Positions 5,381 to 51,900 of a DNA stretch of 64,000 bases are shown one piece after another. The stretch comes from Planctomycetaceae bacterium (lineage in GTDB: Bacteria > Planctomycetota > Planctomycetia > Pirellulales > Pirellulaceae), in contig JAAYDI010000112.1 of NCBI GenBank assembly GCA_012729315.1, positions 1 through 64,000 on the forward strand, given 5' to 3'. Numbering within the stretch: position 1 is the stretch's first letter; each line of letters starts with the position of its first letter. The notes under the pieces were generated by a model. That model was not told the DNA's origin and searched no databases. It saw only the letters and a list, made by a program, of their open reading frames with translations. The position numbers were made by a program, and so were the translations under genes.

Positions 5381-5889
5381 AACTCTCCCGGGCCCCCCCG
5401 ATCGCTCTCCCGAGCCCCACGTCACCGCAAGCGTCCCACGTGCGGTCGGTCCCGCGACGACGACCTCTCAGCAACGGCCTGACTGCGCCGTAAGTCGCTC
5501 CGTGAAGAACAGTTGGGATCAGAGGTAGAATCTCGCCGGAGCGGGGTCTACACGGTTGACGCGGTGTCGATCAGACGGGCTGCGCTCATCGTGCCACGCG
5601 GGGCAACGCGTTATCTGCGAACGACTTCCTACGACTCTTGAGAAGTCGCATTTTCGTTGCAATAGGTTTGGCCGTAATTACAATCCAACTTATGTGGCGT
5701 GCATGACGCGACAGAATTGCCTGATTTTCCTATAGCACCCAGTTGATGCTGCTGGCGTGTGGCAGTTTTGGTCTTTGCTCGCAGCCGTCGTGGGCCGGCT
5801 CCGGGTGCGGTGGGCGTTCATAAGCGGGTTTGTCGCCTCCAGTTGCTCTCTGAGAGAATTCGCACTGTCGTTTGTTGAGGGGTTGGTAT
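5381..5889. other. Intergenic region upstream of the giant surface protein gene
   Basis: About 510 bp without a supported gene. It is less GC-rich in its second half and contains the candidate promoter at 5657-5684, leaving an inferred untranslated leader of about 200 nt. No hairpin terminator for the GGDEF gene is obvious. Confidence 0.6.
5657..5684 (+). promoter_or_regulatory. Candidate sigma-70-type promoter for the giant surface protein gene
   Basis: TTGCAA at 5657-5662 and TACAAT at 5679-5684 are separated by 16 bp. The -10 hexamer matches the consensus in five of six positions. The site lies in a locally AT-rich patch about 205 bp before the start codon. It was recognised by eye only. 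Confidence 0.4.
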
Positions 5890-14800: not shown

Positions 14801-17800
14801 GCAACAACTACAACTTCCCGGGAGGCGCTCACGGCAGCCTCGAGACGAATGCCTTCAGCCTTCAGGGGTATTCGGCCAGCGATGATCCGGTGTTGTACTT
14901 CAACTACTTCCTCCAGACGGAGAATGCGCTGTACAATCCCCAGCCGCTCGATCCGATGCGGGACGCGTTCCGCGTCTTCATCAGTGCGGACGGAGGCGAA
15001 TGGCAGCTGCTGGCGACCAACAACTCGTTCCGCAGCAATAGACTCTTGGACGACGAGTATGAGTTGGGCGAAGGCGCCATTCCCCAGATGGATCAGGTCA
15101 ACGGGCGGCGCGGCGTGCAGGAGCTCTTCGACAACACGAACAGCTGGCGGCAGGCACGCATCCAGTTGGCGCCGTGGGCCGGCATGGAGAACCTGAGGTT
15201 GCGATTCGACTTCTCCACGGCAGCCAGCCTGGATATCGGCGGTACGGCCGGGGTCGACATCTGCGGGGTGGCGGCCAGCAGGGTCCGCGACGGCGAAACG
15301 CTGGTAATCGATGACGGGGTCGTCTTCGAGTTTGATTTCGGCCACATCCTGGTGGCCCCCAGCGCGGCTGTCTTCACCGACGGCACACGTTTCGAAGCCT
15401 ACGGTACGCGGTTTGAATTCGATCCGCTGCTCGACGGTGTCACCGATGGCATCCCGATCATGTTGCTGCCAACCGACAGCGCGACGGCTGTGGCAGAGCG
15501 GATCGAACAGGCCTTGTTGGCTCGGTCGATCGACGTCGTCCGCGATGGAAACCGGCTCAACCTGCCGGCCCCCGGGGTAGTGGACGTGCTGGATTCGGCA
15601 CTGATCCATGAAGCGGAGCCGGGTGTCGACGGCACGAACATTCCGATGGTGGTGACGGTGTCGATGTCCTCCGACCAGGTGGCCGCTGTGGTCCGCAAGG
15701 CGCTGGAAGACCGGTTTGCCGGCGGCGATTTCGGGCCCGGTGAGGATGGCTTCCAGAATATCACCATGTACAAGGACCGCGTCCGCTTGGTCGGCCATTC
15801 CGTGACCGACGCGGGGCCGCTGAGCGTGATCGGCCAGCTGCAGGGCGACGAATTCGGCAGCTTCTATGCCTCCGGACCGCCGGCGCTGCCGGGACGCTTC
15901 GCCGGTTCGCTGCGCGGCATGAACAACAACTATGAGGGGGTCTATATCGACGACATCATCATCGGGTTCGCCGAGCGGGGTGAACTGGTTACGGGTGCCG
16001 TCGGAGATGCCAGTTTCGTGGCCAACCCGCAGGTGCCGGACTTCTCGGAACTGCAGGGGATGTACCAGGTGGAAGTCCGCCGCGGTCCGGAATACGGCTA
16101 CATGACCAGCAGTGCGGCGATGCCCTTCTGCATCCTCGAAGGGATGCCTCCGTTCGGCTGTGGCGGCCGCTCTTTCGACACCAACGACCGGCTGGGACAG
16201 CACATTTCCCTGGTGGCCCCCTCGGCCGACCAGTTACGGGATGGGCAGACGTTCCAGATCAGCGACGGGGTGAACACGGTGGTGTTCGAGTTCGAGGATC
16301 TGGACGTCGGTGACGGCGTGGCGAGCGGCAACCTGATGGTGCCGTTTGACGCGACGGCCTACGACCCGGTCACCGGCTCCTACGCGGCTGAGCCCGCGTA
16401 TGTCATCGCGCGCCGCATTCGCGACGCGATCAACAGCAGCCAGTCGCAGGTGATCATCGACATCGTGGCCGCGCTCGCGGACGGCGAGGTCGTGACGCCC
16501 GCGGCGCCGCCGCGCCCCAGTGTGTTCACGCCGCTCTACGCGGCCCCCAGCACGAGCAACGTCATCAATCTCTTCGGCAACGCCACCGGGGACGTGTTCC
16601 CGACGTTCGACTTCGGCGAGATTGAAGTGATTACCTACGGGTACTCGGAGGCGCTGGGCGTCGAGCATCAGATGGTCGGCGACAGCAATGTGTTCCGCGA
16701 TCAGGGGCAGATCCTGATCCATTCGAACATCGTGCGCGACTCGGCGCGGTTCGGCATCGTGGCCGATGCCGGCGACCGCAGTCGCAGCGACCTGGTGCCA
16801 GCCGCCGGTGTGCTCCCGCACGCCGGTCCTGCCGCGAACCTGCGCGTGCGGAACGCCGAACGCCTGACGCCGGGCGTGGTCATCATCAACAACGTGATTG
16901 CCAACAGCGGGGTGGGGGGCATCCTGTTCAGCGGCGATCCGGCCACCACCGGCGAACTGGGGAGCGTGCCCTTTGGACGCATCGTCAACAATACGATCCA
17001 CGGCAACGGCGGTGGCGTGGGGATCCAGGTATCGGAAAATGCCAGCCCGACGATCCTCAACACAATCGTATCGAACGTGGCCACCGGGATCAGCATCGAT
17101 GCCACGTCGACAACGACGGAAATGGGCGGTCTGCTGTTCCAGAACGTCGGGACACTGTCCACGACGGGGGTGATCGGCGCCTACGCGATCGTGCTCGGCC
17201 CGGACGACCCGCTGTTCGTCGATGCGGCGAACTACAACTTCCTGCCGGCGGCGGGCTCAAAGGCCATCGACAGCTCGATCGATTCGCTGGATGACCGGCA
17301 GAACTTGTTCTTCGTGAAGGATCCGCTGGGCATCTCCAAGTCCCCGATTCTGGCGCCGGCGCGCGACGTCTATGGCCAATTGCGGCAGGACGATCCCAAC
17401 GTCAACCCGCCAGCGGGCCAGGGCGAGAACGTGTACAAGGACCGCGGTGCCGTGGACCGGGTCGACTTCATCGGCCCCTATGCCCAGTTGATCAACCCGC
17501 GCGACAATGACGGAGAGGGGCATGACGCCAACCCGCGCGACACGATCGTGAACGTCGCGACGACACTCACGCACTTCAGCATCCAGCTGATAGACATGGC
17601 CGCTGGTGGCGGCGAAGGCACCGGCCCGAATGACGCCTCCGTGCTCGCTTCGACCGTGATGCTGCTCCGCGACGGCAGGACGCTGGTACGCGGCGTGGAC
17701 TACTCGTTTGCCTACGACACCACGAGTAACACGATCCGTCTGTCACCGATTGCCGGCATCTGGGAGCGGGATCGGCAGTATGAGATCAACCTGGTGAACG

Positions 17801-19557
17801 CCGAGCGCCAAGTCGTCAACTTCCTGACGTCCACGCCGGCCGACGAAGACTCGTTCACCATTGAGGATCTTGCCACGCCCACCGCCAACAGTGTCACGTT
17901 CGAGTTCGACACCGGATACGTCATCCTGGTACCGGCGACGGGTGGCACGGCGCTGGTGGACGGTGAGACGTTCCTGCTCAGTCATGGTGCGGTGACCAAG
18001 TCGTTTGAACTCGATTCCAACGGCCAGGTCGCCACCGGCCGCGTGCGTGTCCCGTTCACGGAGACGTCCACCCAGGACGAAGTAGCCAATGCGCTGGTCC
18101 AGGCCATCCTGTCCAGCGGTATGTCTCTCGCGCCGCGGAACGCCGGCCAGGGACGCGTGCACATTGGCGGGAACGACAGCACGAATCTGGACACGTCGGC
18201 GACGACGCTCGACCAGACCGGCGAGCCCGGTACGCAGAACGAGGACGCCATCCCGATCGTGATTGCTCCGGGGCGCGGTGAAGACATCGCGCAGGCTGTC
18301 TCGGAGGCCATCGCTGCCGCGGTGGCGCAGGGCAAACTGGTGGGGGTCACCAGCGAGGCCTTCGGCGCCTACCTGTTCCTGGACGGCATGGACAGCGTGA
18401 CCGGACTGACCGTCGACACACTGACGTCGATCCACGATCTGGCTGGCAACGACCTGCGGCCGAATCGGCCGGACGGTACCACACGCTTCACCATCCTGAC
18501 CGGTCTGGGCACGGACTACGGCGATGCGCCGGCCGTGTACCCGGTCCTCCGCGAAAACAACGGGGCCGGGCACCGCATCGTGCCAGGATTCCACCTGGGC
18601 GCGTTCGTAGACGCGGAACCGGACGGTCAGCCGTCGGCGCTGGCCAGTGCCGATTTGAGTGATGACGGCGTGGTGTTCGCCGGTCCCATGACGGCCGGTC
18701 AGAACGCGGTCATGAACGTGGTCGCGTCGGCGCCCGGGTTCCTGGACGTGTGGTTCGACGCCAACGGTGACGGCGACTGGAACGACGTTGGGGAGAAGAT
18801 TTTCTCCAGCCACCGCCTCGCGGCTGGCAGCAACACGCTGACATTCAAGGTCGTTGCGACCGCCGTGAATGTGCCGACGTTCATGCGGTTCCGGTTCAGC
18901 AGTACTGGTGGCCTGGCACCGACCGGCATCGCGGAAGACGGCGAGGTGGAAGACTATGTCGTGACCGTCTCGGCCAACCCGTGGCAGAACCACGGTCTGG
19001 CGCGGGACGTCAACGGCGACGGCTACATCTCGCCGCTCGACGCGCTGCTCATCATCAACCTGCTGAACTTCAACCCAGGAATATCGCAGCAGCCGCTGCC
19101 GGTGCCGCCGCTGCCCGAATTCACGCCACCGCCGTATTACGACGTCAACGGTGACGGTTACGTCTCGCCGATCGACGCGCTGCTGATCATCAACTACCTC
19201 AATGGCGAGGGAGAAGGTGAAGGCGAAGTAGCGGGCGATCTGCTGGCCGCCGCTGACGACGCCGTCGCGCTGGTGGAGATCGGGCTCAACACAGGCCTGT
19301 CAGGCGGCCAGCTGCTGGTGAGCTCGGCCACCAGTACCGCCCCGGCCGCTCCGGCGATCGATGCGGCTGCCGCGCAGCCTGAGACCGGTTACCCGGACTC
19401 TGGCACCTTGCCGGCGGAGCTGCCACGGGAGCGGGGTCTGACCGATCTGCAGGCCGCGGATCTGGAGGACCTGCTCGAGGATCTGGCCGGGGAAGCAGCT
19501 GATCTGGTCAGCCTGGCCGACGCCCACGATTCCGTCTTCGCCCGGCTGGGCGCGTGA
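5890..19557 (+). CDS. Giant (4,555-aa) LEPR-xLL/dockerin surface protein with a broken matrixin-like motif
   Basis: A very large, probably exported multidomain protein. Its basic N-terminus carries the LEPR-xLL-type motif IETLEDRRLLAL (about residues 34-45). Then come Ig-like strands; a matrixin-like region with HEIGRLLGLH (H507), in which the second HEXXH histidine is arginine; several pre-peptidase C-terminal-like (PPC) sandwiches (about 557-667, 1517-1700 and 1733-1890); right-handed beta-helix segments with NWGGI repeats (about 717-970, 1150-1500 and 3600-3790); propeller-like stretches; at least seven copies of a DGxTFxI...FEFD module; a GEVED domain ending EDGEVEDYVVTV (about 4211-4360); and two dockerin repeats DVNGDGYISPLDALLIINLL and DVNGDGYVSPIDALLIINYL (about 4370-4440). 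An acidic GEGEGE linker and a Leu-rich tail ending DSVFARLGA close the protein. The ATG at 5890 is preferred over TTG 5872 because GAGGGG lies 7 nt upstream. Adhesin or matrix role inferred. Confidence 0.9.
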   Translation: MAIRRSHKLWKSRKFRRSSSLRALRRSERGLRIETLEDRRLLALGPQLIGVLPNAGSLLVEGDIRNVAPQELLFKFDESQVFTDDPATLQRAFQITRAGGDGVFGDVVDGIGDDVVVTPGYVGLVTGTTNQLVLRFQDRLVDDHYRLVVKGTGVDALRNADGMALNDLTDDNVDNGADYRLNFELDLGAQIVAVVPQPIHRNANGTLSQDRNKIVVYFNDDDLFVQNGPGGAPTAASAENPAFYQLILTRDTVSNQDDVKFNPTKVQYDPVTDRAVLTFGQAASLEGLAGPGTFRLRIGTDESIPAVPVEVTLTREPGSSFDTAIDLSSDFNTDHASSVIVSQKIVSTDYLLDFPGAVDEPGNRSIPVQGPYYPYHDVWAMTLYDADLLGKDPLGEGITTAYYNFQTFYGFDPEGNALRNQITESQKQRAREIFELYGEYLGIDFVETAALGMTIVTGDLRAIEPTVDTQTVIGLAEPKDLEGRAIINAGVNWSDRYGDTWFQAAMHEIGRLLGLHLTDELPPITIMNGEAILNFDNVPEPDFPGQHDIVHGQHLFRPENKDIDLYRFELQTSGLFVAETHAERLPTSSLLDTHIRVYKQTLTGIEEIAQNDNYFSKDSYVSLSLDAGVYFVGVSASGNDDYDPEIEDSGIGGTSEGDYQLRLSFRPGATRSITDQDNRSLGATRLDGDLDGIAGGVYDFWFRAAAPKGEAAPGQPRTIYVDKSANVGVGTLQAPYGNLAYATANALPGDIIRVVGNGGLDKDITTVADNRAYEIGFGNLPNNILSDGAELVVPKLVTLMIDAGAIFKLKDSRIGVGSPSLSKDLSAGAIQVLGTPDLSVIFTSFQDQETGIDTDPLVTTPAAGDWGGIVIRNDLDRAENRFLWDEHGIFLDYINHADIRYGGGNVKVDGVQQIVNPITLSEAAPTISFNQITKSADAAISADPNSFLEWNYHSPRYQGDAPFTIDYTRVGPDIDFNRIVENTTNGLFIRVTTPAGTATKPQTVTARWDDTDIVHVLAQTLFIQGTPGGPILEESLPPSELISLTSLPGGNLAAGLYNYKLVWVDANGNESLASIPTRTLQVDDGSRIQLTQLPPAPTGFIARRLYRSESNGLPTGEYRLVAQLNTSSITYTDVGNPGGILLDQSGAAANLRRARLDASLVIDPNIIVKLVGARIEVGMGAQLVAEGRDGQQVIFTSKMDDEFGAGGTFDTGNDGAAVAAAPGNWGGIFVSPTGSASIDYALFTFGGGEVPVEGSFAGFNVLEVHQADVRVTRSIFEKNDDGVGGQAPSHRFGRGFNDTGTIFIRGAQPVIVDNIIRDNLGAVVNVNVNALDHSLVSDPGRSTGLLDRATEVRDNQGPLVKLNQLENNGINGMIVRGETLTTQSVWDDTDITHVVLDTIYISDFHTYGGLRLESNATESLVVKLFGPTAGFTATGRPLDIDDRIGGIIQVIGQPGSPVVFTSLRDDTTGAGFRVSDGMPQTDTNNDGSATLPGPGDWRSILIDQYAHDRNVDVYVESEAANVVAPGSNATTSQAEILGALASSEKNGDENLRLGFEVHGLLNDRNDIDVYSFQARAGTEIWIDFDRTRHSLDTVVELIGSDGQLIARSDNSFQESNRAESIVKANPSIDANVLQKSPYLQGRDTYTTNPRDAGMRVVLPGAVGSALTSFYIRVRSSSDNLADLNAGQTMGRYQFQVRLREIDEVPGCTIRYADIRYGTYGIEVYGQPIHSPLLGEASEANNSANDVIANAQALGNILNTDRAALSIAGELTAASDVDFYRFDINYDSVQGSGIVNPFLYLSTIFDVDYSDQLGRSDASLAVFDRNFNLILSSSGVRGRDNSNIAEDQPAPLNGADMDDTSRGSAGTLDPFIGAQSLPEGTYYLAVTNSSRMPNELSQFTQANPANPLVRLEPINSIRRIAEERVEQTGGSNIAGSPTVDLLDDISIVPFTLGDVTLFVATYPGEQPTYGAKIHTVDPFTGALETTLGDISVGGSLPYIGDIAMRYDGQMFSFSQSYFAQLGTDGTVGNFLHIDTGTAAATNLGDDGLLTYVPNPNGQGSVRAGGGQGVGVFFNAITFAGNGQYDLFAVGDRGDAGWGLVTRETNILYQFDANTGVGNSMYSPGSDRTGCPPGGNECQHNGAGTQIRERGQIITTGSTITTADATDLTGPFDASISIQDGAGFQIDSESFEFDTGPEVMVLIDPATGRVIRDGDFMILDGDFFQFDTGSTLVIPADTEDYAAGATIPDGLVLTFYATSGAMVRLEFEDTDVGDGRETSGSVLVNYDATTTQAQLQERVVSSLNAVTVFPVRAAAVGPDLVSFTRDARIHMDGRFLIDTSNTILSTLSQPAVALVAEETILIPNSGYADAETLTISDGNKTVLFEFEDVSLGNGLVNIEAVPINFDATSDGFDIFTQLVAGILANDLRVSPQGVALRPSEDVWGLHLETSLKLSGERGDAPIVAVINGARFNDGETFVVVTTDGRTTFEIDLGDGVAAGNVQFSVTSFDTAVELAERLASYVNQYTAAESRAVYETVDDDVAYVLVNSQQIPLGRATPETPHILFQEASAGLSLVPIFDYLANPDHPTFSDIEGLLMGFEETMTQAQFQQQLANELNVRRTITNASNPAGAPIVITSDNHGLRTGQSVMIRDMVGDLVRFMPGQVFANGLFDITVVNANTFSLNGTQFRNFSGNTLFNYQDGGGYFINYEASSMGARTNFLGGNVGRFKGVPIFVDQGTRGGVSAGNVRVPLRAADTANQVAAVVAQHINRELFPEVVARAGTGVVNIVNGQAFADAPLIASNSGAGGQVTGIAIVNNNMYAVDDRGGLYQIRNYRSSSLSTQYITNIEGIEFAGLSVGPQQLQNGAYADLLFGISRSGRLYAFDTLGQLQPIFVDGQTSVQTGAVGEVTGMAFSNLDRNLWHVTNNRANDPGHGITVPVDGSRLARNGGNSYYFGFQDVSANGWTSLDPTNRNNYNFPGGAHGSLETNAFSLQGYSASDDPVLYFNYFLQTENALYNPQPLDPMRDAFRVFISADGGEWQLLATNNSFRSNRLLDDEYELGEGAIPQMDQVNGRRGVQELFDNTNSWRQARIQLAPWAGMENLRLRFDFSTAASLDIGGTAGVDICGVAASRVRDGETLVIDDGVVFEFDFGHILVAPSAAVFTDGTRFEAYGTRFEFDPLLDGVTDGIPIMLLPTDSATAVAERIEQALLARSIDVVRDGNRLNLPAPGVVDVLDSALIHEAEPGVDGTNIPMVVTVSMSSDQVAAVVRKALEDRFAGGDFGPGEDGFQNITMYKDRVRLVGHSVTDAGPLSVIGQLQGDEFGSFYASGPPALPGRFAGSLRGMNNNYEGVYIDDIIIGFAERGELVTGAVGDASFVANPQVPDFSELQGMYQVEVRRGPEYGYMTSSAAMPFCILEGMPPFGCGGRSFDTNDRLGQHISLVAPSADQLRDGQTFQISDGVNTVVFEFEDLDVGDGVASGNLMVPFDATAYDPVTGSYAAEPAYVIARRIRDAINSSQSQVIIDIVAALADGEVVTPAAPPRPSVFTPLYAAPSTSNVINLFGNATGDVFPTFDFGEIEVITYGYSEALGVEHQMVGDSNVFRDQGQILIHSNIVRDSARFGIVADAGDRSRSDLVPAAGVLPHAGPAANLRVRNAERLTPGVVIINNVIANSGVGGILFSGDPATTGELGSVPFGRIVNNTIHGNGGGVGIQVSENASPTILNTIVSNVATGISIDATSTTTEMGGLLFQNVGTLSTTGVIGAYAIVLGPDDPLFVDAANYNFLPAAGSKAIDSSIDSLDDRQNLFFVKDPLGISKSPILAPARDVYGQLRQDDPNVNPPAGQGENVYKDRGAVDRVDFIGPYAQLINPRDNDGEGHDANPRDTIVNVATTLTHFSIQLIDMAAGGGEGTGPNDASVLASTVMLLRDGRTLVRGVDYSFAYDTTSNTIRLSPIAGIWERDRQYEINLVNAERQVVNFLTSTPADEDSFTIEDLATPTANSVTFEFDTGYVILVPATGGTALVDGETFLLSHGAVTKSFELDSNGQVATGRVRVPFTETSTQDEVANALVQAILSSGMSLAPRNAGQGRVHIGGNDSTNLDTSATTLDQTGEPGTQNEDAIPIVIAPGRGEDIAQAVSEAIAAAVAQGKLVGVTSEAFGAYLFLDGMDSVTGLTVDTLTSIHDLAGNDLRPNRPDGTTRFTILTGLGTDYGDAPAVYPVLRENNGAGHRIVPGFHLGAFVDAEPDGQPSALASADLSDDGVVFAGPMTAGQNAVMNVVASAPGFLDVWFDANGDGDWNDVGEKIFSSHRLAAGSNTLTFKVVATAVNVPTFMRFRFSSTGGLAPTGIAEDGEVEDYVVTVSANPWQNHGLARDVNGDGYISPLDALLIINLLNFNPGISQQPLPVPPLPEFTPPPYYDVNGDGYVSPIDALLIINYLNGEGEGEGEVAGDLLAAADDAVALVEIGLNTGLSGGQLLVSSATSTAPAAPAIDAAAAQPETGYPDSGTLPAELPRERGLTDLQAADLEDLLEDLAGEAADLVSLADAHDSVFARLGA
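12397..18180 (+). repeat. Region encoding at least seven copies of a DGxTFxI...FEFD protein module
   Basis: Within the giant gene the pattern DG-x-[TF]-F-x-[IL]-x-[DG] followed by FEF[DE], a valine-rich strand (GNLMVPFDAT, GRVRVPFTET) and a short Ala/Ile helix recurs near 12410, 12510, 12960, 13290, 15290, 16230 and 17840. Copies are diverged at DNA level, so this is an old protein repeat rather than a recent tandem duplication. Beta-propeller-like and beta-helix-like segments interrupt the series. Confidence 0.6.
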
Positions 19558-22533: not shown

Positions 22534-22706
22534 GCGTTGCCGGCGGATTCTGCTCGCCCCCTTCCGCGCCATCGTCTACAATATCCGGCGTGCTCAAGGC
22601 CGGATTGGCGACGCGTCCCGCGCCTCCCTGTGCGCGAGCGGAGCGGGCCGGTGCCGCGCGTTCTGGCACAGTGTCCATCGGGGGCGTGTGGGACGAGGGG
22701 GGGAAG

Positions 22707-25280
22707 TTGAGTCGTTCTTGGCAGCCATATCGATCTGCGCGGTCCGCAGCCTGCCGACCGCCGTCCAGCAGGCGCTTAGCACGCACCCGGCGGCGACTGG
22801 CCTTCGAACCGCTGGAAAGACGCCAGCTGTTGACGGGGGCTCTGTCTCTCGCGGAGATTCCGCCCGTGGAGGCTGAAGGTGAGTTGGCGAGTGCACAGGT
22901 CGCCTTTCGCCTGGCTGTGACCGACTTGCAGGGCGAACCGGTGGAGCAGGCGACGCCGGGTACTGACATCTACTTGAACGTCTATGTACAGGACGTGCGG
23001 GAGGGGGCCCGCATACCGGGCATCTTCGCTGCGTACCTGGACGTCAACTATCCTGCCGATCTCCTGTCGATCGTCCCGTCGTCTGCGAACCCGCGCGGGT
23101 TTGACATTGAATTCGGCCCGCACTATGCCAACGGTCCCTGGGGGGTGGCCAAGACCGCCGGACTGATCGATGAAGCGGGGGCGTTTCAGACCGGGTTTGC
23201 GCCGCTGGGATCGGCCGAATACCTGGTGTTTCGCGTGCGGTTCACGGCTGGCCGCATGACGCTGTGCAACGACGTGTTCACCGGGATTGCCGAAGACAGC
23301 CGCCACGTGCTGCTGGATGTGCTGGCCAACGACCAGTTCCGCGGAGGCGTGGCAGAATTCACCTCCAATCCAGCCGACATCAGTCCGGCCCATGACGTCC
23401 TGACCTACAGCCCGCCGGTCGTCGTGCCGGATGCGGAAGCGGTGTACGGTCAGACGACCCTCCAGGTCACGTTGCCCAGCGCCGGCGTGATTACGTCGGT
23501 GACGCAGCCGAGCTGCGGAGGCCAAGTACAGATTTCGGCCAACGGCCTGCATCTGCTCTATTCGCCGCCGGCGGACTTCTCGGGAACGGAACAGTTCACC
23601 TACACGGTGGGCGGTGTGCGGACAGCGTCAGTTACAGTCGACGTGTACGCTGTGAACGATGCCCCGGACGCTGTGGACGACCAGTACGAACTCGGCCGCA
23701 ACGAAGTGCTGCGCGTCGATGCCCTGCGAGGTGTGCTGCAGAATGACCACGACGCAGAGGGCGACCCGCTGCGCGCCCTGCTGGTCGAACCGCCACAGCA
23801 CGGCAGCCTGGAACTGCAACCCGATGGCAGCTTCGTCTATACCCCCGAGCCGGACTTCGTGGGGACCGACCGGTTCGTCTACGCGGCGCAGGATCCCTGG
23901 TTCGCCCAGAGCGAAGCGGAAGTGGTGCTCCAGGTGGGAGCACCACGCGTAGGCGTGCGTCTGGAACTGGTCGATGGAACGGGACAGCCTGTGGGGCGAG
24001 TGACCAGCGGCGATCCGCTGCGTTTGCGCGCCTGGGTGCGCGACCTGCGCAGCGACTTCTACCCGGAGCGCGGCGTGTACGCAGCCTACCTTGATGTGCT
24101 GTTCGACGAGATGCGCATGGCGCCGATGTTAAACGACCAGCTGCCGTTGGGGTTTGAAATCGACTTTGGAGAGGCCTTTCAGGAGCCCGGTGCCGGTGCT
24201 GTGCAGCCCGAGGGCCGCGTCCAGGGTGTGGGGTCGCAGCTTACGGACGATCGGCCGCCGGGTGACGGCGAGCAACTGCTGTTCGAAATGCCGTTTGAAG
24301 CAGGCGGGGCGAGCGCCCTGGATGACGAGTACACCGTGAGCTTCCAGAGCGTACGGAATGTGTTGAACGTGATGGCCAACGATGACCAGTTCACCTGGAA
24401 CACGGCGTTTGACGCCGTGGCGGCCACGGAGCCGTCGGCCGGCGAGGTGCAGTTGTGGGAGCCGCGCGCCGCGGTGCCCGCGGACGAGATTGTCTGGACC
24501 GGCACGAGCGTGGATGTGACTAACGGCGCCGCCGTGCAGATCGTGGCGGTTGGCCCGGCCAGCCACGGTGGCACAGTGACCATCGCGGCTGACGGGAAGC
24601 AGTTGGTCTACGCCCCTGCACCTGGTTTCACGGGTACCGAGACCTGGACCTACACGGTGGCTGATCCATCCGGTCGGAAGGTGGTCGCGACGGTCGTCGT
24701 GAATGTCATGCCCAGCTGGCAGAACCTGCATCATCCGCTGGACGTCAATAGTGACGGTGTTGTGTCACCGATCGATGCGCTGCTGGTGATCAACTACTTG
24801 AACAGCGGATTGCCGGCCAGGCTGGAGGGCGTACCGAGCGGCCCGCCGCTGCGGGATGTCAATGGGGACGGGTACATCTCTCCGCTCGACGCGCTGCTGG
24901 TGATCAACTACCTGCAGCTGCAGGCGGCCGGCGCAGGGGAAGGAGTGGCCGTGCCGCTGCGTTCAGCGTCTGCCGCCACCGCGGCCGGCAGGCCGGCGGA
25001 TCTGTCTGGCGCGTATGTCCCGCTCGCCCTGGCGGGCGCGGTCGGGCCTGGGGAACGTGCGCCGCAGCAGGCGGTCGAGACGCGCCGGGCGCCCGGCAGC
25101 CGGCCAGTGGCGCTCGAGTCGGCGGCGCTCGAATCAGCGGTGTTCGAGTCAGCGGTCCCCATAGACGCGTCGGTGGCCAGCTCGCCCGACGCCAGCATCG
25201 CAGCCGCGACGCTCTCGGGCGACGAACGCCTCCGCACACTGGAGGAGTTCCTGACGCTGCTGACACGCACGCTCGACTGA
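22707..25280 (+). CDS. LEPR-xLL/dockerin surface protein with two cohesin-like domains interleaved with Ig-like repeats
   Basis: About 857 residues from the preferred TTG start at 22707, which follows a G-rich purine run and gives the short basic N-terminus typical of the family; GTG at 22590 would add 39 residues. The motif FEPLERRQLLTG is near residue 33. Two cohesin-like sandwiches (from about 65 and 415) carry GIFAAYLDVNYP and GVYAAYLDVLFD. Each is split by the start of a cadherin-like/Big_9-type repeat (DVLANDQF, NVMANDDQF) before its C-terminal part resumes (NPADISPAHDVLTYSPP). A complete Ig-like repeat lies between them. Two dockerin repeats (DVNSDGVVSPIDALLVINYL and DVNGDGYISPLDALLVINYL, about 677-737) precede LESA-type tandem repeats and a tail ending FLTLLTRTLD. 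No catalytic domain is seen, so a scaffold role is inferred. Confidence 0.82.
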   Translation: MSRSWQPYRSARSAACRPPSSRRLARTRRRLAFEPLERRQLLTGALSLAEIPPVEAEGELASAQVAFRLAVTDLQGEPVEQATPGTDIYLNVYVQDVREGARIPGIFAAYLDVNYPADLLSIVPSSANPRGFDIEFGPHYANGPWGVAKTAGLIDEAGAFQTGFAPLGSAEYLVFRVRFTAGRMTLCNDVFTGIAEDSRHVLLDVLANDQFRGGVAEFTSNPADISPAHDVLTYSPPVVVPDAEAVYGQTTLQVTLPSAGVITSVTQPSCGGQVQISANGLHLLYSPPADFSGTEQFTYTVGGVRTASVTVDVYAVNDAPDAVDDQYELGRNEVLRVDALRGVLQNDHDAEGDPLRALLVEPPQHGSLELQPDGSFVYTPEPDFVGTDRFVYAAQDPWFAQSEAEVVLQVGAPRVGVRLELVDGTGQPVGRVTSGDPLRLRAWVRDLRSDFYPERGVYAAYLDVLFDEMRMAPMLNDQLPLGFEIDFGEAFQEPGAGAVQPEGRVQGVGSQLTDDRPPGDGEQLLFEMPFEAGGASALDDEYTVSFQSVRNVLNVMANDDQFTWNTAFDAVAATEPSAGEVQLWEPRAAVPADEIVWTGTSVDVTNGAAVQIVAVGPASHGGTVTIAADGKQLVYAPAPGFTGTETWTYTVADPSGRKVVATVVVNVMPSWQNLHHPLDVNSDGVVSPIDALLVINYLNSGLPARLEGVPSGPPLRDVNGDGYISPLDALLVINYLQLQAAGAGEGVAVPLRSASAATAAGRPADLSGAYVPLALAGAVGPGERAPQQAVETRRAPGSRPVALESAALESAVFESAVPIDASVASSPDASIAAATLSGDERLRTLEEFLTLLTRTLD

Positions 25281-25531: not shown

Positions 25532-25581
25532 AGCAAAGGCGACTTCGGCCCGCACCATGATTGCTGGCAGGAATTGAGCGC

Positions 25582-26178
25582 ATGAAGGAATCCGATTCGG
25601 TCAGTGAGTGGATCGAGAGTCTGCGCGCCGGCGATCGGAGGGCGGCGACTCCGTTGTGGAACCGCTTCTATACGCTCCTGCTGCAGGTCGCCCGCCGGCG
25701 TCTCAACGGCGCCGCGCGACGCGTGGTGGACGAAGAGGATCTGGTGACGGCCGCCTTCGCGTCGTTCTTCGCGCGGATGCAGGAGGGGCAGTTCCCCGAG
25801 CTGCGCTCGCGGACCGAATTGTGGGCGCTGCTGGTCACCATCACCGACCGCAAGGCGGTCAACTGCGTCCGCCGGCACATGTCGGTCAAACGCGGGGGTG
25901 GCCGCGTGCACAACGAGTCGACCTATGGTCCGCAGCGGGAAGATGAACGCGAGACGCTGCTGGCCCGCGTCGAGGGACACACGCCGTCCCCCGACCGGAT
26001 CGTGTCGATGTCCGAACTGCTGGAGCGGCTGGATGACGAACTCCGCCGGATCGTGCGTCTGAAGCTGGATGGATTCACCAACGAGGAGATCGCCCAGGTC
26101 GTCAACCGCTCCGTGGCGACCATCGAACGGCGTTTGCGTCTGCTGCGTGATACGTGGATCCAGGAGTTGCTGGGATGA
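25582..26178 (+). CDS. ECF-type RNA polymerase sigma factor (planctomycete ECF-like family)
   Basis: The 198-residue protein has region 2 (about residues 15-95: RRVVDEEDLVTAAFASFF with recognition-type ITDRKAVNCVRRH) and region 4 (about 135-195: ELLERLDDELRRIVRLKLDG then FTNEEIAQVVNRSVATIERRL, a helix-turn-helix). It matches the ECF-like group common in planctomycetes, often encoded next to protein kinases. The ATG at 25582 is chosen because CAGGAA lies about 8 nt upstream; a TTG seven codons earlier is less likely. Its stop overlaps the kinase start as ATGA (26175-26178), indicating translational coupling. No anti-sigma factor is present, so the adjacent kinase is the likely controller, as in other sigma-kinase pairs. 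Confidence 0.92.
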   Translation: MKESDSVSEWIESLRAGDRRAATPLWNRFYTLLLQVARRRLNGAARRVVDEEDLVTAAFASFFARMQEGQFPELRSRTELWALLVTITDRKAVNCVRRHMSVKRGGGRVHNESTYGPQREDERETLLARVEGHTPSPDRIVSMSELLERLDDELRRIVRLKLDGFTNEEIAQVVNRSVATIERRLRLLRDTWIQELLG

Positions 26179-28019
26179 GTCTGCTGCGACGCGACGAGTC
26201 GCTCACCCTGACAGACCGCCAGGAGCTGGACGGGATCTGTCTCGCGTTTGAGGACGAGTGGCTCGCGGGACGCCGCCCGGTGGTGGAGGGGTACCTGCGG
26301 CAGGTTCCGCCGGCCCGGCGGTCCGCGCTGCTCAAGGAACTGCTGCTGCTGGAACTCGACTACCGGCGCAGCCTGCACGAGGAGCCGTGCCGGGAGGATT
26401 ATGTGGCGCGGTTTCCGGACGCGGTGGCCAGCGTGGAGGCGGCGTTCCAGGAGGCCTGTGCGCGGGCGGTGCCGGTGCGGTTCCTGCCGGGCAGCTGGAT
26501 CGGCCGTTACCGCGTGCGGCGCAGATTGGGCAGTGGCGCTTTCGCGGCCGTCTATCTGGCCTGGGACGAACAGCTACAGCGGGAGGTCGCGGTCAAGGTA
26601 CCACACCCGGCCCGCCTGGCCCGCCTGGGCAGCGCCGACCAGCGGCAGCGGCTCGTCGACGAGGCGCGGGCCGTGGCCAGTCTCAAACACCCGCACATCG
26701 TGGCGCTCTACGACGCCGCTGAACTGCCTGACGGGACGGTCTACCAGGTGATGCAGTACGTGCCGGGCCAGTCGCTGCGGGAGTTGCTCGACCGTGGGGC
26801 CGTCCCGCCCGATCAGGGCTGCCGCATCCTGGCCGATGTGTCGGACGCCATCGCGGTGGCTCACCGCGCCGGGATCATCCACCGCGATCTGAAGCCGAGC
26901 AACATCGTGCTGGACGACCTGCTCCAGCCGCATGTCTGCGACTTCGGATTGGCGCTGAGCGAGAGCCAGCAGTGCGAACGGCGGGGCGAGTATGCCGGGA
27001 CCCTCTCCTACATGGCGCCGGAGCAGTTGCGGGGCGAAGCACACCAGCTGGATGGTCGCGCCGACATCTGGGCCGTGGGCGTCATGCTCTACGAACTGCT
27101 GACCGGGCGGCAGCCGTTCCAGGGACGCGACCGCCAGGAACTCACCGAACAGATTCTCTCGCGCGACCCGCGTCCGCCGCGCCAGATCGACCCCCGCATC
27201 GGGCGCTCCGTCGAACGCGTCTGTCTCCGCTGCCTGGCACGCCAGCCGGCGGACCGCTATGCCACGGCGGCGGACGTGGCCGAGGACCTGCGCAGGGCCC
27301 TGGACCACTCCGCCTGCCGCAGATCGCCGGCGCTCTACGGCGGTCTCCTGCTGTTGGCGCTGCTGCTCGTGTCGGCGGCCGTGGCTCTGTGGCTGCACTA
27401 CGCTCATCCGGCCGGCGCCCGGATCCTGCCCCTGCACGGGTCGCTCGAGCTGACCGTCTGGCATCCGGCCCACTGGCAGCGGCAGGGGGTGCGTCTGGAC
27501 GATCCGCAGGCCATGCCCCTGCGCCCCGGCGACCAGGTGCGGCTGGCCATCGAACTCAACCACCCGGCCTACGCCTACATCGTGTGGCTCGACGCGCAGG
27601 GGAGGCCGGCACCGGTCCATCCGTGGCGCGGCGGGAACTGGCAGGACCTGCCGGCCGAGAGCCTGCCCGTGAGCGGCCTGACGCTGCCGTCCGAGCCGGA
27701 TACCGGTTGGGAGATGCGCGCGCCGCAGAGCGGTATGGAGACGCTCCTGTTACTGGCCCGCCACTCTCCCCTGCCGGCCGACGTCTCCTTGCGCGAACTG
27801 CTCTCCACCCTGCCCCACACCACAATTGCGTGCCGGCCCCACGCGGTGCGGTTCCACGCCGGACGGTTGCTGCCCGTCGCGCAGTCGCGCGACGCCCTGC
27901 TCGACCGCCCGCGGGAGATCCATGATCCGCTGCTCCAGCTGCATCAGGAACTCGCCACCCGCCTGCGCCCGCACTTCGAACTGATTCATGCGGTGAGCTT
28001 CCCCGTACAAGGAGACTGA
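26175..28019 (+). CDS. Transmembrane Ser/Thr protein kinase paired with the ECF sigma factor
   Basis: The 614-residue protein has a roughly 110-residue N-terminal region. A complete Hanks-type kinase domain follows (about 112-375): glycine loop LGSGAFAAVYLA, catalytic lysine in VAVKVPHP (K141), HRDLKPSN (H236, D238), DFGLALSE (D256), GTLSYMAPEQLRG and DIWAVGVMLYELLTG. One transmembrane helix (about 385-410) leads to an extracytoplasmic region of about 200 residues whose LRPGDQVRLAIELN...AYIVWL segment resembles DUF4384-type sandwiches. The likely role is to sense an envelope signal and phosphorylate the co-encoded sigma factor and/or CHAT protein. The ATG at 26175 overlaps the sigma stop. The stop is 3 nt before the CHAT gene, so all three are tightly coupled. 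Confidence 0.93.
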   Translation: MSLLRRDESLTLTDRQELDGICLAFEDEWLAGRRPVVEGYLRQVPPARRSALLKELLLLELDYRRSLHEEPCREDYVARFPDAVASVEAAFQEACARAVPVRFLPGSWIGRYRVRRRLGSGAFAAVYLAWDEQLQREVAVKVPHPARLARLGSADQRQRLVDEARAVASLKHPHIVALYDAAELPDGTVYQVMQYVPGQSLRELLDRGAVPPDQGCRILADVSDAIAVAHRAGIIHRDLKPSNIVLDDLLQPHVCDFGLALSESQQCERRGEYAGTLSYMAPEQLRGEAHQLDGRADIWAVGVMLYELLTGRQPFQGRDRQELTEQILSRDPRPPRQIDPRIGRSVERVCLRCLARQPADRYATAADVAEDLRRALDHSACRRSPALYGGLLLLALLLVSAAVALWLHYAHPAGARILPLHGSLELTVWHPAHWQRQGVRLDDPQAMPLRPGDQVRLAIELNHPAYAYIVWLDAQGRPAPVHPWRGGNWQDLPAESLPVSGLTLPSEPDTGWEMRAPQSGMETLLLLARHSPLPADVSLRELLSTLPHTTIACRPHAVRFHAGRLLPVAQSRDALLDRPREIHDPLLQLHQELATRLRPHFELIHAVSFPVQGD

Positions 28020-28022
28020 CGC

Positions 28023-31000
28023 ATGCTCTGTGGCTGCCCCACCGGATGCCGGACCGACCGGCGCACGCCATGCCATGGCCCCCGCTGGCCTCGGCCCACC
28101 ATGCTGGCCGGCCTGCTTGCCGCCCTGACGTTGACATGCTGCGAGGTTCCCCCGCCGGTCGGCGCGGGAGAGCCCCAGCAGAAGGTTCCCGGCCCAACGC
28201 AAGAGAAACCACCGCTCGACGCTCGGCAGACGGCACTGATGGCTGAACGCGACCGGTTGATCCTCAGCGCAAATCACGCCTATCAGACCAGACAGTACGA
28301 AGAGGCCATGGAACACCTCCGGCAACTCGTGGCCCTGTACGAGGCAATGTATCCCGTGTCGCAGTATCCCACCGGGCATATCGACATCATCCGAGTCTAT
28401 TTGAGTATGTGCAACGTCGCCGAAGCGTGCCAGGATTATGCTCAGCTCGCGAGTCTGGGCGAGATAGGGTTGCAGGCCTGCCGTGCGCTGTGCCCGCATC
28501 ATGACCAGGCCGAGGCCAACGCCGTCGAAGCGCTTCTGCATCAGTACATTGGTAAGGCGTTCCATGCCCGCCACGACCGTGTGAAGTCGCGCGAGCACTA
28601 CACGCACGCCGTAGATATCTGCCGCGCGTGTCTGGACCAGGATCCAAATGGTGCCATGCACGTGCTGATCGCCGAAGTCTATGACGCGCTGGCCCAGATC
28701 TGCATGAGCGAGGGTGACCTGCGGGCGGCCGATGACTACTGGTCGCGCGCGGTATCGGAATTCGAGTACCGCGTTCGCTTGGCCTACACGCTCCATGAGC
28801 AACGACAGTATGCCAAATATCTGGTCGCGCGCAGTAACGTTTTGCGCCACCTCGGAAGGTACGAAAACGCCCTGACCTACGCGCAACATGCCTATGATGT
28901 CAGCCTGCGCCTGGTGCTGATCACCCGTTCAGATGAAGATTACGTGAATACGATGCGGATGCTTTTCGAGAAAGGTGCACTGCATCGGGATGTTGGCAAT
29001 AATCAGCAGGCACTCAGTGCGTTGGAGAACGTCCGAGACAAGCTGCTGAGTGATGGCAATCACGATGTTCGCTTCCCCGGTATGTTGGATGCGGTTCTGT
29101 GCAATCTGCTGGTGTTGGCGGTGTCACAGGAAGATCAGCGGGCGTTGGAGATCTGCCGTCATGCACTACTTTCTCGACATGCTGCACGTATAGGTCGGTC
29201 TCCACTTGATGGCGACGCAGTTGAGTGCGCTGAACTGATGCGCAATTTGGCGTACGCGTTTGGAGAAAGTGACGACTACGCACTTGCTGAGCACTACTAT
29301 GGGCAAGCGGTAGATCTTCTATCTACAGATAACACGACAATGTCCAGTAGATCGAAGCTCCTGGAGATGGCTGTTTTACGCCATGATCGCGCGCTTCTTT
29401 TTGATCGCATGGGACGTTACCAAGAGGCCCAAGACGAGTACGTTGAGGCACTTTGGACCGTGAATAAACTGTATCCGGCCGAACTATATCCCAGTGGTCA
29501 TCCGCTGCTCAGTCGTGTGATGCAGAATATGGCGACCCACTGCTGGATGGTCGGGGAGACGGACAGGGCGGCGGACCTCTATCACCAGGTCGTGGTGATG
29601 AATGAGTCTTTCTTCCCCACAGCGGACTACCCCGATGGACATCCGCGGTTGCAGGAAGCGTATGCGGCCTGGTCCGACGTGCTGACTCGCGAGAAGAGAT
29701 TCGATGAAGCGGAGACTTATGCAGTCAAGTCGCACGAGATGATCGTGAAGCGGACGGGCGGTCACGCAGCGACCACCGCACGGTGCAGCGGCGAGCTGGC
29801 GGATTCCTGGGTCCGGCTCGGCAGATTGAAACGTGCACGTGGTGACTATGCGGCGGCAGATGAGTTATTTCAGCAGGTGCTGAGGATGCACGAGCGCGCT
29901 GGCTCAGGCGATGCGGGCAACCGCCTGGAGATCGCACTGGTGCTCGCCGAACTGGGCCGAACAGCGGCTGCAGGCGGTCGTTCTGCCGCGGCGCTGGAGT
30001 ACCATCAGCGATCGCTGGCGATACGCCGAGCCCTGTTTCCTGCCGAGGCGTTCCCCAACGGGCATCCGACACTTGCCAACGCGCTTCGCGACCTGGGAGT
30101 TACATATCTGGATGCAGGCCAGCCAGTCGAGGCGTTTGGTCTGCTGGCCGAGTCTGCCGGGATGGAGCACGCGATCGGTGAGGCATTCTTCGGCGGAGGT
30201 TCCGAGGCGCAGTTGCTGAATCTGGCCGCCCGCAAGTTCCAATCACTCGGGCCGCTGCTCGAGGCATGGCGACAGACACAGCTTCCGGCGGAGGATGTCT
30301 ACCAGTACGTCTGGATGCGGCACGGCTTCGTCCCCCGCCTGATTGCGGATCGACAGCGCGCCTTGCGCGCACTGGCACGCGATTCCGAACCGACTCGCTA
30401 TGAGAAGTACACAGCTGCCAGGCAGGATCTGGCGCGGGCCCTGCTCGTGTCCGTGACCGATCAGGGACAAAGCAATACCCCATGCATCGAGAGAATCCGA
30501 GAGCTGAATGTGACCAAGGAACACCTGGAGGAGGAACTGACACGGAGTCTGGAGTCAACACAGCCTGCCTATCCACCCGCAGAGCAGATCAACATGCTGG
30601 CCAGGTTGCTACCCGCGAAGTCGGTTTTCGTAGACTTCTTCTCCTCTGCGCGGCTGTCCTTTGACGCGACGTTGCCGCATCGTTCAGAACACGATGCACC
30701 AGACAGGTTCTTGGCCTTTGTCGTCAGTGGGGATCGTCCGGTTGCCTGCGTTGATGTGGGTGATTCCAGTGAGATTGCGACCCTTGTCGAAGCGGGGAAG
30801 AAGGAGTGGTCAACCGGCGATACTGGAACTGCCGCCTGGACGCTGCGAGAAAGAGTCTGGGATCCAGTCTGCCGCTGCTTCGCCGCCGACGTCGACACTG
30901 TCTATATCGCCCCTGACGGGATCCTGGCCGAAGTCGCCTGGAACGCACTCCCCGGCCCCGGAGAGTCGGGAGTGCTGTTGGAGCAATTCGCGATCGCCAC

Positions 31001-31931
31001 CGTGCCCCACGGTTCGTTCCTGCTCGATCGGCTGCGTGAACCGGAGTCCGATCAACGATCACTCGCTCCTGTTCTGGCGGTCGGAGATGTGGACTATGGA
31101 CACCCGGAACAGGTCGCTCCGGTCGCATCCCAAGGACTCAAGCAACTGAGATGGGAACCCCTCCCGGCGAGCCGCCGTGAACTGGAGGCCATCGTTGCCC
31201 GCATCGCACCCGATCAGCTGATGCTCCTCACAGAAGACCAGGCGACCCCTGAGAACGTGCTCGCAGGGTTGCGCACGGCTCACGCTGCCCATTTTGCGAC
31301 ACACGGTTTCTTCGTGGACCAGGATGTCAGCGTCGCCTTGGACCTGGCTGGCACGGAAAACGGACCAACGCACCTGACGATCAATCGGACCCGAGCATCG
31401 GTCCTGGGACGCAGTCCTCTGCTGCGCTCGGGGCTCGCCCTGGCCGGGGCGAACACTCCGGCGCCGAATGACGAATCAGGCGTCCCGATCAGCGCGCCAG
31501 GGATCCTGACCGCTGAATCGATCGCGACGGTCGATGGGCAGCATCTGCAACTGGTCGTGCTCAGCGCGTGTGATACATCGCGCGGCGACGTCGCCCTGGG
31601 CGACGGCATACTGGGAATCCAGAACGCTTTTCACATCGCCGGCGCACGCAACGTGATCGCGGGACTCTGGAAAGTACCAGACGAACCCACAGCCGAGCTG
31701 ATGAGTGATTTCTATAGGCTCCTCTGGGTAGAACACCAAACACCACTGGCTGCGCTCCGCAAGGCACAGCTGAACATGCTGCATCGCGAACGCACCACCT
31801 CGGCCAGTCTCCGCAGCCCAGGGCCGGAATTGAGCAAGACGGTCCGGCTCAACAACACCTTCGGATCCCGTGCACGCAACTGCCGCACCCGGGAATGGGC
31901 GGGGTTCGTCCTGTCGGGCCCCGGATTCTGA
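28023..31931 (+). CDS. TPR-repeat CHAT-domain (caspase-like) protease candidate
   Basis: The 1,302-residue protein has an export-like N-terminus: a Pro/Arg-rich lead, then the hydrophobic MLAGLLAALTLTCCEVPPP, possibly a signal or lipoprotein-like segment although the initial stretch is atypical. A long helical array of TPR-like units follows (about 75-830; for example AEDYWSRAV-type and ALEYHQRSLAIRRALFP helices). A C-terminal CHAT domain (about 860-1270) carries the predicted catalytic dyad in HFATHGFFVD (H1094) and VLSACDTSRG (C1183), followed by GARNVIAGLWKVPDEPTAEL, the usual CHAT ending. CHAT proteins are caspase/separase-like cysteine peptidases. AAGGAG lies 9 nt before the ATG. Tight linkage to the sigma factor and kinase suggests it is an effector of, or a target in, that signalling module. 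A stretch around 29230-29440 is visibly less GC-rich than its surroundings. Confidence 0.9.
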   Translation: MLCGCPTGCRTDRRTPCHGPRWPRPTMLAGLLAALTLTCCEVPPPVGAGEPQQKVPGPTQEKPPLDARQTALMAERDRLILSANHAYQTRQYEEAMEHLRQLVALYEAMYPVSQYPTGHIDIIRVYLSMCNVAEACQDYAQLASLGEIGLQACRALCPHHDQAEANAVEALLHQYIGKAFHARHDRVKSREHYTHAVDICRACLDQDPNGAMHVLIAEVYDALAQICMSEGDLRAADDYWSRAVSEFEYRVRLAYTLHEQRQYAKYLVARSNVLRHLGRYENALTYAQHAYDVSLRLVLITRSDEDYVNTMRMLFEKGALHRDVGNNQQALSALENVRDKLLSDGNHDVRFPGMLDAVLCNLLVLAVSQEDQRALEICRHALLSRHAARIGRSPLDGDAVECAELMRNLAYAFGESDDYALAEHYYGQAVDLLSTDNTTMSSRSKLLEMAVLRHDRALLFDRMGRYQEAQDEYVEALWTVNKLYPAELYPSGHPLLSRVMQNMATHCWMVGETDRAADLYHQVVVMNESFFPTADYPDGHPRLQEAYAAWSDVLTREKRFDEAETYAVKSHEMIVKRTGGHAATTARCSGELADSWVRLGRLKRARGDYAAADELFQQVLRMHERAGSGDAGNRLEIALVLAELGRTAAAGGRSAAALEYHQRSLAIRRALFPAEAFPNGHPTLANALRDLGVTYLDAGQPVEAFGLLAESAGMEHAIGEAFFGGGSEAQLLNLAARKFQSLGPLLEAWRQTQLPAEDVYQYVWMRHGFVPRLIADRQRALRALARDSEPTRYEKYTAARQDLARALLVSVTDQGQSNTPCIERIRELNVTKEHLEEELTRSLESTQPAYPPAEQINMLARLLPAKSVFVDFFSSARLSFDATLPHRSEHDAPDRFLAFVVSGDRPVACVDVGDSSEIATLVEAGKKEWSTGDTGTAAWTLRERVWDPVCRCFAADVDTVYIAPDGILAEVAWNALPGPGESGVLLEQFAIATVPHGSFLLDRLREPESDQRSLAPVLAVGDVDYGHPEQVAPVASQGLKQLRWEPLPASRRELEAIVARIAPDQLMLLTEDQATPENVLAGLRTAHAAHFATHGFFVDQDVSVALDLAGTENGPTHLTINRTRASVLGRSPLLRSGLALAGANTPAPNDESGVPISAPGILTAESIATVDGQHLQLVVLSACDTSRGDVALGDGILGIQNAFHIAGARNVIAGLWKVPDEPTAELMSDFYRLLWVEHQTPLAALRKAQLNMLHRERTTSASLRSPGPELSKTVRLNNTFGSRARNCRTREWAGFVLSGPGF

Positions 31932-36686: not shown

Positions 36687-36719
36687 AGCTTTGCTCAGCA
36701 CCTACGGCCGGAAATGCCA

Positions 36720-48910: not shown

Positions 48911-51900
48911 TTACTCTCCGTCGAGCCAGGCGGCCAGGACGTCCTCGGCCAGCAAGTCGAGCAGCGATTCCCACTGCTCATTGGCGACATCCACGAGCGA
49001 CGAAAGCTGGCCGCTCGTCGGAGCCTGTCCGATCCGCGCCTGCCAGTCAGCCGCCGCATCGGGTACTCCTGGCACCGCGGCCGCGCTGGCCGGCGACGCC
49101 GCGACCATGGCAACTGTCGTGCCCTGCACAGCGCCTGCCAGGTTGCCGACCGCGAAGCCCTCGCTCGCCGTCCCCGCCACCGCGTCAAGGGCCTCGCCCT
49201 CGCCAGCACTCTCGCCGGCACCCTCGCCCAGGCCGTCGCGACGGTTGAGATAATTCACGATCAGCAGGGCGTCAAGCGGTGACACGTGCTTGTCACGATT
49301 CACGTCCAGCCGCACGCCGGGCGTACCTCCCCGGTTCAGATGATTGATCACCAGCAGCGCGTCGATCGGGGAGATGAAACCGTCGAAGTTCACATCGAGC
49401 GGTTCCCCCAACGGTGTGCCGCCCCCGGTGCCCGCCCCACTGGCGTGCGGATCCACGATCGTGAGCGACTTGAGCCCGTATTGGATGTCGGCTGGCGAGA
49501 CGACATCGGGCGGATGGTAGTACAGGACGTCGTGCGACGGGCTCACATCGGCCGGATCGCCAACGAACTCCACCGTGCCCGTGTCGACCGCCGTGAATAC
49601 GATGCGGAAGACCTCGTACAGGTCCGGGCCGAGCGGATCGAAACCGGTCTGGATCGCGCCGACTTCGTTCACGATACCCGGGGTATCCACGTCGCCCGAA
49701 AGTGCGTTGGAGTACTCGTCCGTGAACGAGATGGCGAATCCCAGGCTGTTGGCGGCATCGTAGTTGGCCGTCACCAGCGTGCGATCGTACAGCACGTCCA
49801 TGTACACCGCATAGATGCCGGCCGTGTTGGCCGCCACGTCCCGGGTGTCCTGCACAGAGGCGACCAGAACGAACTCGTCACCCACGTTGACCTGGGAGAT
49901 CGGGGTCCCGTTAAGGTCCACAATGTCAAAGACCAGGTCCACCGTCTGCTCGCCGGCCGGATCCTTGATAATCGTGACCGTGGCGGTGCTGCTGCCGTTG
50001 GCGTTGCTGATCGTGTACTGGAACTTGTCGATGCCGTCGAAGGACGCGTCCGGAGTGTAGATAATGACGTCATCGAGCGGGTCGTCGGGCGTTCCATTGT
50101 TGTCAATGACCGCCGTGCCCATGGTCGGGTTGGTCACCGACGTGAGCTGCATCGTACCGAGCACGCCAGGCAGGTCGTTACGCAGCACGTCCAGGATCTG
50201 CGCCCCGGTGGCCAGACGGTAGGAATCGTCCACCGCGATGGGAGTCAGCACCTGCGGACGGACGAACACCGTGACCTCCGCGGTCGAGACCGCGCCCGTG
50301 CCATCACTGATCGTGTAGGTGAACGTCTCCACCGGCGGGCTGACGGCGCTCTGGGCGGAGTACAACAGGGACTTGCGATCGGGGGAGATCTGCACGTTGC
50401 CCCGCGCGGGCTGCGTCACCGAGACGATGGCGAGCACGCCAGTGGAACTGGCGAAGTCGTTGGCCAGTACGTTCAGCTCTTGGCGGATGGCGCCTTCGGG
50501 TACTTCGTAACTGTCCGGGTTGGCCACCGGTTCGTTCGACAGGACCAGCAGCCGATAGTCTTCCACTTCACCAGCCGTGGCACGGCCGGAAGGCGCCAGA
50601 TTGGCGTCCGACGAGAAGCGGAAGCGGGCGTAGGTGTGTCCGACCACCGCATTGGACGGCACCGTGATGGGGATCTGGTAGACGCCGGTTCCCAGCACGC
50701 GGTCACAAATCACGTGCTCCCCGGCATCGGTCCAGTCGCCGTCCTGATTGAAGTCGATCCAGCCCTGCAGGAATCCTTGGGGATAGGAGGTCGACGTGAC
50801 GGTCACCCCCAGTGTGGCGGTCGTTCCGGCGTATAGCGCCGCCGGAAAAACGATACCATCTTCATCGGCGAGATTCAGAAGGTCGTCTCCGTCAGCGAGG
50901 GGGCTGGGCAATCCGTTCGGTTCGGCGTCAATGAGTGTTCCGAGCATGAATCCGGGAAGGATGCCGTGCGCCGCGCCTCCCTGGCTGCTGAGCGTGAGGT
51001 AGGGGGCCGGGGCATCGCCATAGTCGAACGCCGCCACGTTGCCGAAGTTCACGTTCGGCACGGTCCCATTGGCCACCACATCCACCACGTGGTAGCCCAG
51101 CGCCGGGGAGGTCAGCGACCAGCCGGGGCTCGGTACTTCGCGGATGGTGATCTGTCCGGCGGGGATGCCACTGATGCTGTACGAGCCGTCTGCGCCGGTC
51201 ACGGCGGCCGGCTCACCCAGCGCGATCTGACCGTCGTTGTTCAGGTCCGCGTAGATGTACACCCCCGGTATGCCCGGTTCCTTCGGATCCTTGATGCCAT
51301 CGCCGTCCAGGTCGTGCCATTTGACGCCCGACACGACGCCTGGCAGCGGCATGTTGCCGAAGTTCACGCCGCTCACGACATCGCCTCGTCGGGTGATCGT
51401 AACGGTCTGCTTGCCGCTGGCCGGGTTGATGGCGGTCCAACTGGGTTGCAGCACCTGGCCGACGGTGTACGTACCGGGCACGGCTGTCGTGATGATCGTG
51501 TAAGCACCGGTCGCGTCCGTGACGGCGTACGGGTCGCGGGAGTCCATCACGCCGTTGCGGTTCACGTCCAGGTAGACCGTCCAGCCGGCGATGCCTGCCT
51601 CGGCAGGGTCCCGCACGCCGTTGCCGTTGCGGTCCATGTAGACGACTCCACTGACGCCGGTCGTCTTGATCTGCGAGACGGCGTTGTTCACGTTCAGCCG
51701 TCCACCGGTGACTACGTACGGGGCATATTGCGGGAACTGGTCGACGCTGTTCAGGAGCAACTGCCGCGTCTCCGCCACACTCAGTTCGGGTGCCAAGGCC
51801 CGCAGCAGCGCGGCGGCACCGGTCACGTGTGGCGAGGCCATCGACGTGCCGGACAGGTACTGATATCCGGCCCCTTCAAACATCATCAGGTCCGTGCTCG

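Follow-up and report, generated by a model that had tools for sequence, protein, structure and literature searches.

Domains that occupy several separate parts of a protein chain are usually put down to the insertion of one domain into another. A stretch of 64,000 nucleotides from a Planctomycetaceae bacterium (here called the window) raises the question of whether two unrelated domains can instead interrupt each other. The protein concerned is encoded on the plus strand at 22590..25280 (896 aa), and a preliminary description of the sequence had claimed that cohesin-like and Big_9-type Ig-like domains are interleaved in it, twice. The frame starts with a GTG at 22590; the same description started the product at 22707, where a TTG is a possible alternative start. 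A planctomycete export signal region, RLAFEPLERRQLLTG (22794-22838, +), lies within the frame, and a pair of type I dockerin repeats (PF00404; 24735..24917, +) follows the domains in question. The product is probably exported and, with its dockerins, part of the cell surface or matrix. A Pfam scan of the frame returned Big_9 three times and cohesin not at all.

The claimed arrangement was found in both copies, each of which can be divided into four blocks in the order N-L-C-R, all on the plus strand. In copy 1, the N block (22899..23252; VAFRLAVTDL...FRVRFTAG) carries cohesin-like strands 1-7 and has an ordinary homologue in the subtilase of the window. The L block (23253..23342; RMTLCNDVF...LANDQFR), which is set between cohesin-like strands 7 and 8, in their turn, is the start of a Big_9 domain, with its A and B strands and the LAND turn. 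The C block (23343..23468; GGVAEFTS...TTLQV) supplies cohesin-like strands 8-9, and the R block (23469..23660; TLPSAGVITSV...VTVDVYAVND) supplies the remainder of Big_9. In copy 2, the corresponding blocks are N (23949..24308, strands 1-7), L (24309..24392; ASALDDEYTV...NDDQF), C (24393..24524, strands 8-9) and R (24525..24716). The two interleaved units are separated by an uninterrupted, ordinary Big_9 domain (23661..23945, +; PF17963, best stretch aa 356-446). The block edges were located where the preliminary description had placed them, except that the cohesin-like part restarts slightly earlier than claimed, at GGVAEFTS..., which is a strand, and ends at TTLQV; the refined restart of the Big_9 part is VITSVTQP. 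The subtilase (ORF 48911-53473, -) serves as an internal control: its cohesin-like domain (49454..49942, -) is indeed uninterrupted, with a gap of 2 aa between N and C.

Excision of the intruding blocks provides sequence evidence for this order. With the C block excised, coverage of the Pfam Big_9 model rose from positions 37-88 to 9-88 of 89 in copy 1 (33.7 to 42.2 bits) and from 32-89 to 8-89 of 89 in copy 2 (46.2 to 55.1 bits); both copies match PF17963 at full length above the curated cut-off only in this excised form. For a broader comparison, 22 interleaved units were scored with profiles made from uninterrupted domains of the retrieved loci, 62 of them Big_9 and 46 cohesin-like. These profiles contained no interleaved sequence, the ordinary domains having first been located with block models made from interleaved units. 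Excising the intruder raised the Big_9 score by ∼13-33 bits and the cohesin score by 6-46 bits, and in uncut interleaved proteins both scores fell to about the level of R alone or N alone. In 21 of the 22 units, none of 200 shuffled versions of C reached the real cohesin score; in the remaining unit, the most divergent, 2 of 200 did. Interleaved units have 26-33 aa between N and C, ordinary ones mostly 2-8 aa. Since a full-length cohesin-like domain is restored by removal of L, and a full-length Big_9 domain by removal of C, the order N-L-C-R is confirmed. The outcome that would have spoken for two sequential domains, with the LAND strand belonging to the cohesin-like fold itself, was not observed: the LAND segment is absent from ordinary cohesin-like relatives and is homologous to the Big_9 start. 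Every block thus has its homologue in an ordinary domain, and at the sequence level the units form pairs of the type A1-B1-A2-B2 whose parents both occur intact elsewhere. Reciprocal interleaving of the cohesin-like and Big_9-type domains is therefore supported by sequence, and the predicted structures are consistent with it.

A simpler reading is that L merely decorates the cohesin-like 7/8 loop and that the Big_9 domain following strand 9 does not need it, being either complete already or supplied with another strand as a substitute. The L block is, after all, only ∼30 aa long, and the R block by itself already scores above the Pfam Big_9 cut-off. Yet the match of R alone begins at position 32-37 of the 89 in Big_9 and lacks the A-B strands, and L fits this missing start: L plus R scored above R alone in all 22 interleaved units, and in none of them did any of 200 shuffled L segments equal the real Big_9 score. 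In addition, the two strands of L match those of the ordinary unit in the predicted models. We consider mere decoration improbable.

The structural comparison was made with AlphaFold2 models of the interleaved unit of copy 1 (ORF residues 102-359) and of an ordinary unit, from only 14 sequences each and at equal alignment depth. The pLDDT and pTM were 92 and 0.78 for the interleaved unit and 94 and 0.81 for the ordinary control. In the interleaved model, the strands of the N block are followed by strands at 127-133 and 139-141, then by strands at 152-160 and 187-192, and finally by five Big_9 strands; the main secondary-structure elements of the ordinary model correspond to these but are permuted to the order N-C-L-R. 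Structure prediction, which the preliminary description had proposed as a check, thus returned strand elements shared by the two forms and differing in their order along the chain. The suggestion that interleaving locks the domains into a single rigid unit finds no support in the models, as the pTM is no higher than that of the ordinary tandem form at equal depth. Foldseek matched both models to solved cohesins, the interleaved one nearly as closely as the ordinary one. With 5nrm (141 residues), the interleaved model gave TM 0.68 over 197 columns and the ordinary model 0.70 over 161; with 2jh2_B, the values were 0.68 over 200 and 0.75 over 153. The interleaved model uses ∼36-47 more alignment columns than the ordinary one to match cohesins, an excess that approximates the length of L plus gaps and indicates that the cohesin fold carries on past the insert to its end. 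The root mean square deviation was larger for the interleaved matches, being 5.9 Å to 5nrm compared with 3.7 Å for the ordinary model. From homology and the strand pattern of the models, we infer that the L hairpin pairs with the R strands of Big_9.

The well-defined overall arrangement of the interleaved model (by its pTM) could also be taken as a sign that the two domains have fused into a single new composite β-sandwich in which the identity of the parents is gone. This is very improbable: both profiles are recovered at full length after excision, and the interleaved model still matches solved cohesins as a whole, its TM values of 0.64-0.68 (by target length) to 5nrm, 4ums and 2jh2 placing the predicted fold among the nine-stranded jelly rolls, as do those of up to 0.75 for the ordinary paralogue model. 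The Pfam cohesin model did not match even with L excised, and the domain is for that reason called cohesin-like. That misjoined repeats created the arrangement during assembly or annotation is scarcely credible, because, although the window comes from a draft assembly of 213 contigs with genes rich in repeats, the same boundaries recur in assemblies made independently, in each of the two copies and across divergent proteins, and the homologues refute an artefact. The interleaved arrangement is real and conserved, and it is consistent with a true strand exchange.

How might a chain accomplish such an exchange? In published cohesins, one sheet has the strand order 9-1-2-7-4 and the other 8-3-6-5; strands 1 and 9 are parallel, whereas all others run antiparallel (PMC5429695). 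It follows that strand 7 runs parallel to strand 9 and hence that the strand 7/8 turn and the C terminus lie at the same pole. As a tandem Big_9 domain begins at this pole too, the exchange of C and L amounts to a local rewiring that displaces neither fold. The chain would first build strands 1-7 of the cohesin-like jelly roll, exit at the strand 7/8 turn and form the first Big_9 hairpin (A strand, B strand and LAND turn). It would then come back to add strands 8 and 9 to the cohesin-like domain and, on leaving strand 9, would resume and complete the Ig-like domain. With the 7/8 turn and the cohesin C terminus at the pole where the next domain docks, this exchange would be sterically easy. The dockerin-binding face of cohesins (8-3-6-5) includes strand 8, which adjoins the insert, and a putative effect of the insert on partner binding is possible. 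The interleaved units themselves probably act as stalk or partner-binding modules.

The orthologues of the protein (L057-L061) indicate where the interleaved order may have come from. They read N-C-L-R, N-C-L-R, N-L-C-R, Big_9, N-L-C-R and dockerins, i.e., both block orders coexist inside one protein, with two ordinary copies upstream of the interleaved pair. The tandem order N-C-L-R is also the commoner one in other proteins, and the interleaved order would most simply be its derivative. The most likely origin of the interleaved form is therefore in ordinary tandem cohesin-Big_9 repeats. Because N-C-L-R cannot be converted to N-L-C-R by one insertion, more than a single insertion event is needed. 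One possible route would be duplication of C-L to give N-C-L-C-L-R, after which the first C and the second L would be lost; neither of the intermediate orders N-C-L-C-R and N-L-C-L-R was seen. In a quick tree of 93 cohesin-like units, the interleaved domains did not form one clade and required 7 changes. A single clade was not rejected by the AU test (p 0.54), and the tree constrained to one clade scored 3 log units better, or 10 better for the core orthologues. Overall, we consider it probable that the units consist of two unrelated β-sandwich domains with exchanged chain segments, derived from tandem repeats.

The preliminary description called such interleaving rare, which is true of its range, confined to one family in our searches, but not of its frequency within that family, where 25 of the 93 cohesin-like units of the tree are interleaved. 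When 149 genomes from the family were searched, 13 of them, belonging to 7 genera, had the unit in a continuous reading with the same boundaries. Profiles run against 397 genomes from the order contributed two divergent cases, each in a further genus. Altogether, the arrangement is known from ∼15 genomes and 9 genera within the family and from one “Candidatus Anammoximicrobium” MAG (L097). Assignment as interleaved was by eye for four loci (L063, L097, L144 and L145). A scan of contigs, from which the interleaved unit of L097 came, gave 43 named loci, all planctomycete or unclassified by label except L093, which is labeled Thermodesulfobacteriota and whose cohesin-like domain is uninterrupted. 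Phylum-wide draws, with only ∼10 candidates scored per genome, yielded no further interleaved cases at strict thresholds, and no relatives were found among viral contigs. One match from a different family within the order (G669) looked strong but proved to be a Big_9 domain with a long loop and not a cohesin. Some other proteins have large insertions elsewhere in the cohesin-like domain, for example of at least 100 aa between early strands in L058 ORF 7594 and L110 ORF 2757; these are ordinary insertions of a different kind, unlike L. In L064 and L065 (ORFs of 1,768 and 1,741 aa), an interleaved unit at the start is followed, as judged by eye, by a cyclophilin-like stretch and Big_9 repeats.

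Other features of the window and the related loci were noted in passing. Type I dockerin repeats occur in the interleaved protein and in neighboring proteins of the window (Pfam). Of 48 distinct proteins, 36 have a short [AG]EGE motif at most 70 aa beyond their final dockerin-like motif, compared with 0.4 expected from shuffles, in a sample biased to loci near cohesin-like genes. Examples are the region 24917-25130, where the interleaved protein itself retains only a relic AGEG, other dockerin proteins of the window (5872-19557 and 48911-53473) and loci L055-L145; the motif may serve exported proteins of planctomycetes as a signal for sorting or processing. Many dockerin proteins also have a similar tail, approximately L..LA.DV...W, in their last 35 residues, as in the C terminus of the subtilase (LLDLLAEDVLAAWLDGE, 48911-48970) and at loci such as L058, L059, L077, L096 and L101. 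Directly downstream of the interleaved protein (25561-31931), an ECF sigma factor, a Ser/Thr kinase and a TPR-CHAT protein are encoded in a row. A SecA-like protein of 652 aa (38514-40472), shorter than the usual SecA and with matches to the DEAD, cross-linking and P-loop domains, is encoded near several exported giant proteins. The long minus-strand frames opposite large genes (11512-16203, 6019-11076 and 32520-36701) are probably shadow frames of GC-rich coding sequence.

Several known systems can be compared with these units. The predicted N-plus-C jelly roll resembles the cohesins of cellulosomal scaffoldins and of Clostridium perfringens glycosidases (5nrm, 4ums and 2jh2), and type I dockerins occur in the same proteins, but here the strand 7/8 turn holds a hairpin of another domain, Pfam cohesin does not match, and dockerin binding is putative. 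L plus R resembles the Big_9 (PF17963) or tandem-95 repeats in its full-length match after excision, except that, once past the LAND turn, the chain quits Big_9 to complete another domain. The RTX adhesins FrhA and MpIBP contain split Ig-like domains in which one β-sandwich is interrupted by another domain (PMC10865825); theirs is a nested A-B-A arrangement, whereas in A-B-A-B both domains are interrupted. Domain dislocation in periplasmic binding proteins swaps elements between two lobes, with multiple chain crossings (PMC9815098), but those lobes duplicate one fold, whereas here the domains are unrelated and the unexchanged form is kept in the same protein. Composite, sequence-discontinuous domains cannot be accounted for by a single insertion event (PMC2662426); they are defined geometrically, whereas both parents here are mobile families that are intact elsewhere. 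Cohesin/dockerin modules are shared with the non-cellulosomal “Planctosome” of freshwater planctomycetes (PMC6461901), and interleaving is not mentioned in the consulted passages of that source. A limited search of the open-licence literature found no described reciprocal interleaving of the cohesin and Big_9 families.

An A-B-A-B order is beyond the reach of a single insertion, and the value of the present example is that it is a clear case, in unrelated domains, with the unrearranged form in the same protein. It is tempting, if doubtful, to go further and propose that local segment transposition can rewire neighboring unrelated domains that have their free ends and a loop at a common pole and that it has occurred more than once in planctomycete cohesin-Big_9 proteins, decoupling chain order from fold as a regular mode of evolution. 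Standard domain annotation splits the interleaved units, truncating the Big_9 match and missing the cohesin-like part. The ordinary and interleaved versions constitute a side-by-side pair for the study of folding, stability under pulling and partner binding.
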